Origin: Parapedobacter lycopersici
Lineage (GTDB): Bacteria > Bacteroidota > Bacteroidia > Sphingobacteriales > Sphingobacteriaceae
Assembly: GCF_024643285.1 (NCBI RefSeq)
Contig: NZ_JAMSLW010000001.1
Span: 372,001-436,000, forward strand
DNA length: 64,000 nt
Direction of reading: 5' to 3'
The notes below the pieces were generated by a model. The model did not search any database, was not told where the DNA came from, and worked only from the letters and a program-made list of their open reading frames with translations. Both the position numbers and the translations under genes were made by a program. This document shows positions 24,601 through 28,006 of this stretch, in pieces (positions within the stretch are counted from its first letter, which is position 1; every line of letters starts with the position of its first letter).

Positions 24601-25851
24601 ATGGATTTACTTAAATTTATAACGGCTGGAAGTGTTGACGACGGTAAGAGCACGTTGATTGGCCGATTATTATACGATACAGACTCAATCCTGGATGACC
24701 AGCTGGAAGCAATCCAGCGGGCCAACCGCAAAAATAACGATGGCACCATTGATCTGGCTATCCTTACGGATGGCCTGAAGGCCGAGCGGGAGCAGGGCAT
24801 TACCATTGACGTGGCGTATAAATACTTTCAAACAGACAAACGCAAGTTTATTATCGCCGACACGCCGGGCCACATTCAATATACCCGGAACATGGTCACC
24901 GGAGCTTCCAATGCCGACCTGGCCATTATTCTGATCGATGCCCGCAAAGGCGTGATTGAACAGACACGCCGGCACTCCTTTATTGTTTCCCTGTTGGCGA
25001 TACCCAATGTGCTGGTATGCGTCAATAAGATGGACATGGTTGACTATGACGAGGCGGTTTTCGCCAAGATCAAATCCGACTACGAGCAGCTGACGGAAAA
25101 CCTCCGCATCAATCAGGTGGACTTTATACCCGTAAGCGCGTTAAAGGGAGATAACATTGCCGCTCCGTCTGCCAATATGCCCTGGTATGAGGGGACCTAC
25201 CTGTTGAATTTCCTGGAAACCGTGGATACCCACCAGCCAAATACTGAGCAACAGGCTCGTTTTCCGGTGCAATGGGTTATCCGACCGCAAACGGCGGCAC
25301 TGCCCGATTATAGGGGGTATGCCGGACGTGTGGTAGGCGGCAGTTTTAATGTAGGCGACCAGGTAGCTGTCCTTCCTTCCGGATTCAGCAGCCGGATTAC
25401 ACAGATCGAACTGGCCGGTGAGTCGTTGAACACCGCGGAGGATGGAATATCGGTTGTGATACACCTCGCCGACGACCTGGACATCAGCAGGGGAGACATG
25501 CTGGTTAAGCAGGATGAGCAACCCGCTGTTTCACAGGAATTTGAAGCCGATATCTGCTGGATGGATACAAAACCACTGGACATCAGTCAGGTATACCTGA
25601 TTCAGCATCACGGAAAAACAACGAAGATAAAATTGCAGGATATTCGCTATAAAGTGGATGTGAATACACTGGAAAAGACGACTGACGGGCATTTTGGATT
25701 AAATGACATCGGAAAAATCCAGTTTAAATCTGCCGATCCACTGGCGTTTGATGAGTACGCGCGCAACAAGAGTAACGGCGGCGCCATACTGATCGATAGC
25801 CGGAATAATTTAACGGTAGCTGCATTAATGATCGCTAAAGCGACTGCTTAA
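24601..25851 (+). CDS. cysN: Sulfate adenylyltransferase GTPase subunit
   Basis: 416 aa. EF-Tu-like GTPase that drives APS synthesis. G1 AGSVDDGKSTLIGRLLYD, G3 DTPGHIQYTRNM and G4 VNKMDMVDY are present, then beta-barrel domains. The protein stops before any fused APS kinase (CysC) domain, consistent with the APS-reductase branch. Last gene of the operon, followed by a strong terminator. Confidence 0.97.
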   Translation: MDLLKFITAGSVDDGKSTLIGRLLYDTDSILDDQLEAIQRANRKNNDGTIDLAILTDGLKAEREQGITIDVAYKYFQTDKRKFIIADTPGHIQYTRNMVTGASNADLAIILIDARKGVIEQTRRHSFIVSLLAIPNVLVCVNKMDMVDYDEAVFAKIKSDYEQLTENLRINQVDFIPVSALKGDNIAAPSANMPWYEGTYLLNFLETVDTHQPNTEQQARFPVQWVIRPQTAALPDYRGYAGRVVGGSFNVGDQVAVLPSGFSSRITQIELAGESLNTAEDGISVVIHLADDLDISRGDMLVKQDEQPAVSQEFEADICWMDTKPLDISQVYLIQHHGKTTKIKLQDIRYKVDVNTLEKTTDGHFGLNDIGKIQFKSADPLAFDEYARNKSNGGAILIDSRNNLTVAALMIAKATA

Positions 25852-25897
25852 TAAACGATAAATATACCGGACAGGTAAAATGATACAGGCCCGTTTG

Positions 25898-25931
25898 AAA
25901 AATGCCGGAAAATGACTTTCCGGCATTTTTT
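25898..25931 (+). terminator. Strong intrinsic terminator of the sulfate operon
   Basis: A 14-bp perfect stem, AAAAATGCCGGAAA (25898-25911) with TTTCCGGCATTTTT (25917-25930), loop ATGAC, ending in T residues. Located 46 bases after the cysN stop codon. Symmetry of A- and T-runs means it could work in both directions. Confidence 0.92.
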
Positions 25932-26253
25932 GTTGACAAACTGTATTAAAGAGAGCAGTGTGCCAGACTGTCGTAGGTATTGGGAATACTTACCGTGCCG
26001 CTTGCAAAGTGTTAGGGTGGTATTTCTGATTTACTACTTAACATAACGTAAATTATATGAATAATTTATTGAATAAATCACATGGAGATCTTAACGCAAA
26101 ATCATACTGCATAGTTGATGGGAAAACGCACTGAATGGTAATTTATAAATTGCTGTTAGTATTGTGTTTATCATAAGAAAAATGATGTAATTATTTATAA
26201 AAATTGTAATCCGCCGGGTCAATCCAGCCAGCTGGTTATTTAAATAAATCTGC

Positions 26254-26455
26254 TTCGATACTTGTTCGAGAGTTGTTCGGGTCGGCTTCGGGGTTTCTTC
26301 GACACCGCTTCGGGACTTGTTCGAGGCTTCTTCGACTGGTCTTCGAGTCGGCTTCGGGGCTGTTCGGTGCGCAATGCGTTGCGTTCCGAAAAACCCCGAA
26401 GGATTCCCGAAGTATTGGCGAACCATTCCCGAACAAATGCCGAATAAGTCCCGAA
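26254..26455. repeat. Dyad-symmetric array of TTCG/CGAA with 11-bp period
   Basis: TTCG starts at 26254, 26265, 26276, 26287, 26298, 26309, 26320, 26331, 26342 and 26353 (exactly 11 bp apart) and 26363. After a 20-base centre, CGAA starts at 26387, 26397, 26408, 26419, 26430, 26441 and 26452. The seven inner pairs are mirror-placed about 26376.5, including the one 10-bp step on each side. CGCAA-TGCG-TTGCG forms a hairpin tip. The seven bases between tetranucleotides vary. Two degenerate units (CGAT 26474, CGGA 26485) stay in phase. I recognise no named family. Confidence 0.93.
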
Positions 26456-26635
26456 ACTGGCTGCTGCCTTACCCGATCCGTTCTCGGAGCCGGAATTTAG
26501 GCTTCATGAGCCAACTTAGCCGACTTCGGTAGTCATTCCAAAACGCTTTACTACCAACATTTTTTAATTTTAATAATAAATCTTTGCCGTTGTTATTATT
26601 GTTGTTGCAAAAGGTGGATTTCTGTTTAATTTTTT

Positions 26636-26643
26636 TAAATTTG
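26636..26643 (+). promoter_or_regulatory. -7 element (TAAATTTG) for gdhA
   Basis: Full TAnnTTTG match 31 bases before the gdhA ATG. TTG triplets occur upstream but not at the standard 19-21 spacing. Confidence 0.5.
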
Positions 26644-26674
26644 CCGGCGTAAAAATCTATATTAATCAATTAGC

Positions 26675-28006
26675 ATGTCAAGTTATTTCAAAACGTTTAC
26701 GGCAGGCGTCGAACAACGTAACCCCCACCAACCAGAATTTATCCAAGCAGTTAAGGAAGTTGTAGAAGACATTATTCCATACATTGAAGAACATGCAAAA
26801 GAACTGATAGACCAGAAGTTACTGGAACGTATTTCGGAACCGGAGCGTGTGATTTCATTCCGCGTTACCTGGCTTGACGATAAGAATCGGGTACAGGTCA
26901 ACCGTGGTTATCGCGTGCAGATGAACAGCGCCCTTGGCCCCTACAAAGGCGGTCTGCGTTTTTCACCTACTGTGAACCTGAGCATTTTGAAATTTCTTGC
27001 ATTTGAACAGATCTTTAAGAACAGCCTGACGGGACTTCCGCTGGGCGGCGGCAAGGGCGGATCGGATTTTGATCCGAAGGGCAAGTCGGATAACGAAATC
27101 ATGCGGTTCTGCCAAAGCTTTATGACCGAATTGTTCCGGCATATCGGTTCGGAAACGGATGTGCCCGCTGGAGATATCGGTGTGGGTGAACGGGAAATCG
27201 GTTTCCTGTTCGGCCAGTACAAACGGCTTCAGAATAATTTTACCGGTGTGCTTACCGGCAAAGGACCCTCATGGGGCGGCAGCTATATCCGGCCGGAGGC
27301 TACCGGCTTCGGACTGCTGTATTTCGTGGAGCGTATGTTCTATGAAAACCAGAACTCGTTGAAAGGAAAAGTAATCACAATCTCGGGCGCGGGTAACGTT
27401 GCGTATTATGCAGCCATCAAGGCACTTTCCCTGGGAGCAAAAGTAATTACCGTTTCCAATAGCAACGGCACCATATACGACGAAAATGGCTTTACCGTGG
27501 AGAAATTGGATTACGTTAATAGCTTAAATAGAAACCTTGCTGAATATACCAAGCGCTATCCGGCAGAATACCACGAAGGTAAAAAACCCTGGGGCTTCAA
27601 ATGCGATATTGCACTTCCTTGTGCTACGCAGAATGAGCTGGATGAACAGGACGCCAAAACACTGATTGCCAATGGCTGTATGTGTATCGCTGAAGGTGCT
27701 AATATGCCTTCAACGGCAGAAGCCATCAAGGTCATATTAAAGGCAAAAATATTATATGCACCCGGAAAGGCAGCTAATGCCGGTGGCGTTGCTGTATCGG
27801 GACTGGAAATGTCGCAGAACCGGATTGGCCAGCAATGGTCGACTGACAAAGTGGATGCGCGGCTGAAGAAAATCATGCATGATATCCATGATACCTGTGT
27901 GCATTACGGTAAAGATTCCAATGGTGTCATTAATTACCTGAAAGGTGCCAACATCGGTGGCTTTGTTAAGGTGGCCGATGCGATGAGAGCCCAGGGTGTG
28001 GTATAA
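26675..28006 (+). CDS. gdhA: NADP-type glutamate dehydrogenase
   Basis: 443 aa, the hexameric short form. Reductive amination of 2-oxoglutarate. Motifs: RVQMNSALGPYKGGLRF, GLPLGGGKGGSDFDPKGKSD with the catalytic lysine, VPAGDIGVGEREI and the nucleotide-binding ISGAGNVAYYA. Assignment to NADP comes from overall similarity to the assimilatory enzyme. The small conserved gene at 28024 follows after 17 bases and may be cotranscribed. Confidence 0.96.
   Translation: MSSYFKTFTAGVEQRNPHQPEFIQAVKEVVEDIIPYIEEHAKELIDQKLLERISEPERVISFRVTWLDDKNRVQVNRGYRVQMNSALGPYKGGLRFSPTVNLSILKFLAFEQIFKNSLTGLPLGGGKGGSDFDPKGKSDNEIMRFCQSFMTELFRHIGSETDVPAGDIGVGEREIGFLFGQYKRLQNNFTGVLTGKGPSWGGSYIRPEATGFGLLYFVERMFYENQNSLKGKVITISGAGNVAYYAAIKALSLGAKVITVSNSNGTIYDENGFTVEKLDYVNSLNRNLAEYTKRYPAEYHEGKKPWGFKCDIALPCATQNELDEQDAKTLIANGCMCIAEGANMPSTAEAIKVILKAKILYAPGKAANAGGVAVSGLEMSQNRIGQQWSTDKVDARLKKIMHDIHDTCVHYGKDSNGVINYLKGANIGGFVKVADAMRAQGVV

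Follow-up and report, generated by a model that had tools for sequence, protein, structure and literature searches.

Related systems

ParR-type centromeres, such as R1 parC and the parC of pJIR4165, carry short direct repeats at an 11-bp pitch that are bound by an adaptor protein; according to the available text of the source, one ParR recognises a pair of 8-bp repeats separated by 3 bp, and the ParR of R1 needs 11-bp repeats (PMC9426499). Operators of the OmpR/PhoB family have the same pitch and an equally strict spacing, with PhoP reading 7-bp motifs separated by a strict 4-bp spacer and extendable to trimers and tetramers, as stated in the available part of PMC4832192. Among dispersed repeats, the MITE BrickBuilt of Porphyromonas gingivalis, also a member of the Bacteroidota, is reported in the available text to have 19 copies, always intergenic, with tandem 23-nt repeats, long predicted stem-loops and IS5-type terminal repeats (PMC4596501). 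REP/BIME elements with RAYT are likewise dispersed, extragenic and palindromic, and span 20-40 bp in the accessible description (PMC3733652); TAACTGA heptamer repeats appear in the available part of PMC4679880.

The array described here is located between a cysN-like and a gdhA-like gene in the window, the whole 64,000-nucleotide stretch of Parapedobacter lycopersici DNA that was analysed. Like the ParMRC systems, it consists of direct repeats at about 11 bp; unlike ParR-type centromeres, arrays of this kind are chromosomal, mirror-symmetric and present in at least 24 copies. They differ from the OmpR/PhoB operators in reaching up to 14 units per arm, in being mirrored and in having no fixed relation to gene starts. 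Because neither parM nor parR was recognised by eye among the nearest ORFs of 22 loci (cysN and gdhA being the neighbours at the window site), and no response regulator has been demonstrated, we file the element in neither family. BrickBuilt is the nearest repeat family of the phylum among those we met, differing in unit and ends: the unit here is 11 bp rather than 23 nt, the spacers vary, and no terminal repeats were seen. The arrays also extend far beyond the length of REP/BIME elements and form a phased lattice.

As the preliminary description had suggested, the element matches nothing named. A search of Rfam with positions 25800-26800 returned nothing above the gathering score and six sub-threshold matches, one of them over the array (MIR918, 24.1 bits against a threshold of 268, E 0.071). 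Plasmid and phage records searched with blastn gave no match to the array, and paper searches, with most subscription journals outside their scope, found no description of it. The element is real and apparently undescribed.

The array between cysN and gdhA

The features of the locus are as follows.

24601-25851, plus strand: cysN-like gene, upstream neighbour (ORF list; by eye also in six relatives)
25898-25930, no strand: terminator-like hairpin 3' of cysN, a flank outside the element (read by eye)
26038-26056, no strand: flank TTAACATAACGTAAATTAT, conserved after cysN in relatives (gap comparison)
26254-26366, plus strand: strong arm with 11 TTCG, ten at exact 11-bp steps and the last after a 10-bp step (direct reading; shuffles; register as in other copies)
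26371-26382, no strand: palindromic core GCAATGCGTTGC, 12 bp, dyad axis 26376.5 (direct reading; copy comparison)
26387-26455, minus strand: mirror arm with seven CGAA (minus-strand TTCG), a well-kept example (direct reading; copy comparison)
26636-26643, plus strand: flank TAAATTTG before gdhA (within 90 bp of gdhA in this genome and in 5 of 6 relatives)
26675-28006, plus strand: gdhA-like gene, downstream neighbour (ORF list; orthologue comparison)

Direct reading reproduces the coordinates of the preliminary description exactly: ten TTCG start every 11 bp (26254, 26265 and so on to 26353), an eleventh starts at 26363, and seven CGAA start at 26387, 26397, 26408, 26419, 26430, 26441 and 26452. 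The seven inner TTCG/CGAA pairs all mirror one another about 26376.5, with a single 10-bp step beside the centre on both sides of the axis, where the 12-bp core stands. The placement between a terminator-like hairpin and gdhA also holds. The octamer before gdhA resembles what we take to be the Bacteroidota -7 box, TAnnTTTG. After cysN, the stretch TTAACATAACGTNAATTAT (26038-26056; L313-L318 in relatives) is exact in this genome and in four relatives, one base off in L317 and two bases off in L316. A minus-strand ORF of 111 aa (26091-26426) overlaps part of the array and is taken as spurious.

The preliminary description had allowed that the pattern might be confined to this site or due to chance. 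Neither is the case: copies and related arrays were found elsewhere, and four-unit TTCG-N7 runs number 10 in the window, against 0 in 100 dinucleotide shuffles. Together with the backward controls in genomes described below, these shuffles rule out a chance origin.

In the comparison of orthologous gaps proposed earlier, gene order is kept in six relatives and the array is absent from all of them. The cysN-gdhA gap measures 823 bp here, against 202-310 bp without an array in six of six relatives (G001, G003, G004, G005, G006 and G008), whose gdhA orthologue is 80-83% identical and has cysN kept upstream (by eye); G002 and G007 gave no close gdhA orthologue. The array at this site was gained in this lineage, unless it was lost in all six relatives.

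Copies in the genome

The genome-wide pattern search recommended in the preliminary description revealed many copies in this 3.62-Mb genome of 22 contigs, with controls near zero. Among the matches listed, the four-unit pattern gave at least 97 + 78 matches versus 0 + 2 for a backward control, and the six-unit pattern at least 61 + 56 versus 0. Seven-unit runs produced 94 overlapping matches, against none for the backward control, at 20 places; four-unit runs supplied two further loci (C12:45100 and C12:89192), bringing the number studied to 22. A core profile built from 18 copies added C19:97885 (strong) and C19:347423 (weak), and in these profile-only copies (L325, L326) the strong arms are broken. 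The genome thus holds at least 24 copies, a lower bound, as 150 of the 778 own candidates were scored in the profile search.

Counting only pairs of at least 60 bp and 90 bits, own copies are 68-92% alike over 105-292 bp among the pairs listed, and one pair extends over 553 bp. Similar copies stand at unrelated loci, with neighbours that include, by eye, rpsA, dnaK, ileS, rplC, rimP-nusA, metA and gdhA. In 20 of the 22 copies, the array is crossed only by ORFs shorter than 150 aa or, in L070, by one of 323 aa, as called by a crude ORF caller; the other two (L080, L088) lie within long ORFs of recognised families. A hand tally found no constant position or orientation of own copies relative to genes. 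Orientation agrees with local GC skew in 10 of 22 copies (5-kb stretches), showing no tie, and a replication-strand bias was rejected on this basis.

Common plan and conserved lattice

A common plan, which we call type A, is shared by 18 of the 22 copies: a palindrome GCAAYNNDTTGC at the axis, a strong arm and a worn mirror arm, with GCAAYNNRTTGC fitting 15 of the 18 cores. The remaining four copies, as well as the arrays of relatives, have a short centre of the form TTCG-N8/9-CGAA. The core-plus-CGAA pattern has 18 strand matches at 15 array loci of the own genome and 0 to 2 in each of eight relatives.

In type-A copies, one arm is unbroken and the other worn, in the same register. Strong-arm TTCG occurs in 18 of 18 copies at offsets 20, 31, 42, 53, 64 and 75, in 17 at 86 and 97, in 16 at 108, in 12 at 119 and in 8 at 130. 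Mirror-arm CGAA is found in all 18 at offset 10, then in 11 (offset 20), 14 (31), 10 (42), 12 (53), 12 (64), 8 (75), 6 (86) and 6 (97), with the register shifted by one base in three copies. At the lattice positions of the mirror arm, CGAA with no more than one mismatch has a frequency of 0.556, whereas shifting the register by 1 to 5 gives 0.123 or less; this enrichment fades with distance, and none is seen past about 108 nt.

The earlier proposal that selection acts on phase and on the tetranucleotide is supported. Out of 215 nearest TTCG steps of up to 24 bp in the 22 copies, 202 are exactly 11 bp, four are 10, one is 12, four are 22 and four have other values. Over offsets 31-85 of the mirror arm, which played no part in selecting the copies, mean pairwise identity is 0.720 in lattice columns versus 0.408 in spacers. 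The corresponding strong-arm values are 1.000 and 0.557, the perfect score being partly ascertainment, since copies were mostly detected via unbroken TTCG runs.

The proposed unit proved too narrow: its phase stands, and the preferred motif is an 8-bp K-S-TTCG-R-S rather than TTCG alone. Across 237 units of the own genome, which contain 132 different spacers and are not independent, as own copies partly share ancestry, TTCG is followed by a purine in 0.99 and then by G or C in 0.96, and preceded by G or C in 0.97. The extended pattern TTCG-RS-NNN-KS fits 200 of these 237 units, 120 of 172 in Parapedobacter/Olivibacter relatives and 110 of 148 in Sphingobacterium; the fit is lower in Daejeonella (21 of 52), among other Bacteroidota (15 of 109) and in the remaining group (2 of 26).

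These results bear on the idea that the array is a selfish or passive interspersed repeat, MITE- or REP-like, moved by a transposase, in which the TTCG units would be relics or serve transposase recognition, without a function for the host. At least 24 similar and mostly intergenic copies, absent at this site from six relatives, are what such a repeat would leave, and their number and location are comparable to those of BrickBuilt in its available description (PMC4596501). However, a passive repeat would not be expected to conserve lattice positions more strongly than spacers. Inspection by eye of 22 copies with 80-bp flanks, the element ends being undefined, showed no terminal inverted repeats or conserved outer ends. 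A search for the Y1 transposase family (RAYT; Y1_Tnp, PF01797), the one family searched, gave no match in the own genome and a match in one of nine genus genomes (G007), with internal stops. We consider such a selfish or passive repeat somewhat unlikely.

Folding and pairing between the arms

A different reading is that the array forms an extended, imperfect hairpin of RNA or single-stranded DNA, each A-form turn of 11 bp contributing one TTCG/CGAA rung. On both strands, the fold of the window copy is better than that of its shuffles (z -4.5 and -5.4). Native copies likewise surpass versions with shuffled spacers (mean z -3.1 and -3.4), and they are 3 to 4 kcal/mol better than arm-swapped copies (p 0.0094 and 0.0004), an effect driven mainly by L071, L083 and L085; L083 contains an exact 26-bp arm-to-arm match. 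Among rows with a short centre, pairing above chance is limited to the innermost spacer (3.03 versus 2.29 of 7), with rough significance, given that some elements are counted on both strands among the 68 rows, which also contain some simple repeats from outside the Bacteroidota. Mirror-arm variants are often A to G changes, which keep U-G pairs (CGGA 10, CGAG 6 and CGGG 3 of 162 cells).

Against these observations, pairing in the consensus fold is confined to the core and the TTCG/CGAA rungs, with compensatory changes on both sides in 0 of 27 pairs. Spacers pair no better within copies than between them (0.387 versus 0.386 at 35-75 nt; 0.252 versus 0.295 at 75-120 nt), the arms are unequally kept, and C to T changes, by which wobble pairs would be preserved as well, are absent from the 25 commonest mirror-arm words listed. 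Complementarity between the spacers of the two arms is limited to the region near the centre or to a few copies, and because array spacers are mostly not complementary between arms, a selected hairpin is unlikely as the main function. For the folded RNA or cruciform structure considered in the preliminary description, the folding tests lean in favour, while the lack of compensatory pairs and the limited arm complementarity speak against it; as an account of the element we regard it as quite improbable. The arm-swap effect, the match in L083 and the innermost-spacer pairing nevertheless make it possible that the arms are corrected locally against each other or form a partial hairpin.

Distribution among relatives

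In an initial sample of 41 genomes, six-unit runs were present in at least 7, the own genome among them; across the family, six-unit arrays occur in at least 65 of 399 genomes, representing at least 5 of 25 genera. Within the genus, G001, G003, G005, G006 and G008 bear arrays like the own genome, and G002, G004 and G007 are array-free. A scan of named genomes returned at least 114 stretches. With phylum assigned from the titles of the records, low-diversity arrays (spacer diversity below 0.7) were set apart: none of 22 in Sphingobacteriales-named genomes, 34 of 51 in other Bacteroidota and 41 of 46 elsewhere. Among the matches listed, all 22 Sphingobacteriales-named arrays have diverse spacers and 13 have a CGAA mirror (1, 0 and 0 for three control motifs); in other Bacteroidota, 17 of 51 are diverse and 8 of these mirrored, and of the others 5 of 46 are diverse and none mirrored. 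A two-plus-two dyad pattern occurs in 3 of 395 genomes of the phylum, including the own genome, and is insensitive, catching 3 of the 24 own copies.

Several further observations concern the surroundings of these arrays. A second repeat of the GGCAGTNATTGGCAG type and its inverse lie at the outer end of arrays L100, L103, L104, L327, L329 and L330, and L100, L103, L104 and L327 precede DUF6266 genes. In Chitinophaga sp. E66 (L209, 3630-5325), IS3-type orfA/orfB-like genes, recognised by eye, lie between two TTCG arrays of the same orientation, as if inserted. Among the matches listed from 91 viral stretches (IMG/VR), contigs L249, L254, L260, L261, L275, L277 and L294 share a nearly identical run, TTCGCTTTCAATTCGCTTCGG, which is likely unrelated to the TTCG array family.

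Arrays of relatives also lie in the 5' part of SusC/TlpA-type genes, which raises the alternative of a control or recombination element of such outer-membrane operons that was later scattered. Seven of eight Pfam-tested array-crossing ORFs lead into TlpA-like, CarboxypepD_reg or TonB Plug domains (L080, L088, L092, L097, L099, L101 and L102; not L095), similar ORFs were seen by eye in Sphingobacterium among the matches listed, and like leaders precede different genes, L097 and L102 being 92% identical over 498 bp. In the own genome, however, only 2 of 22 copies have such a context, and differences between leader ORFs fall about equally on first, second and third codon positions (46/44/47 in one case). 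The leader is therefore not kept as protein, and a coding role of the array was rejected for the same absence of codon-position bias. We judge an origin in these operons highly improbable. Leaders with a CGAA-sense array (L097, L099, L101 and L102, TlpA/SusC-type by Pfam; L098 and L106) keep an open frame of 96 to 277 codons ahead of the array.

A proposed track for a tandem-binding protein

Our preferred reading, to which we assign a probability of roughly 45%, is that the window array belongs to a family of repeats scattered, mostly between genes, in Sphingobacteriaceae, each copy serving as a dyad-symmetric track for a putative protein that binds cooperatively in tandem. We favour it because of the exact pitch, a motif wider than the tetranucleotide, the mirror register and the weak dependence on base pairing. 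Each copy would be a dyad track of 8-bp K-S-TTCG-R-S sites at a fixed 11-bp pitch, with one protein subunit per site and neighbours binding head to tail. Two oppositely directed protein files would meet at the centre, with the main file on the unbroken arm and a weaker one on its mirror, and the family would have spread by duplication of the whole element. Both the binding of a protein to the arrays and its cooperativity are what we infer from this layout; the outcome might be gene regulation, packing of the DNA or its segregation. Counting against this reading are the partial ascertainment of unbroken strong arms, the fading of the mirror-arm enrichment, the lack of a constant placement relative to genes, the folding results, and the finding of neither an insertion boundary nor a target duplication at the copies.

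A cooperative DNA-binding protein was among the readings of the preliminary description and is the best of them; no such protein was found. The accompanying idea that every TTCG faces one side of the helix does not hold: B-DNA has about 10.5 bp per turn, and an 11-bp step drifts by about 17 degrees, so that ten units are not co-facial in relaxed B-DNA.

Two candidate partners were rejected. In relatives, a DUF6266 gene directly follows an array five times (once each in G001, G006 and G008, twice in G005); however, all nine genus genomes have DUF6266, G002 has 12 matches and no array, and the sole match in the own genome is about 13 kb from the nearest array. The XRE-type neighbour of L088 is present in the array-free G002 and absent from the array-bearing G003 and G005.

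Going beyond the tandem-binding reading, the arrays might form a dispersed centromere-like or nucleoid-organising system, in which two files of a putative protein would start from one palindromic core on about two dozen mobile chromosomal loading tracks; this we regard as unlikely.

What is usually conserved in a bacterial repeat is its entire sequence or a palindrome. Here, at most about 8 of 11 bases are constrained, with an exact pitch and a mirrored layout, and other genera of the family show the same preference. Even as a transposon track, the element would remain structurally unusual. The pattern has the look expected of a protein lattice written in DNA, and it offers a concrete bait for the protein that may read it.
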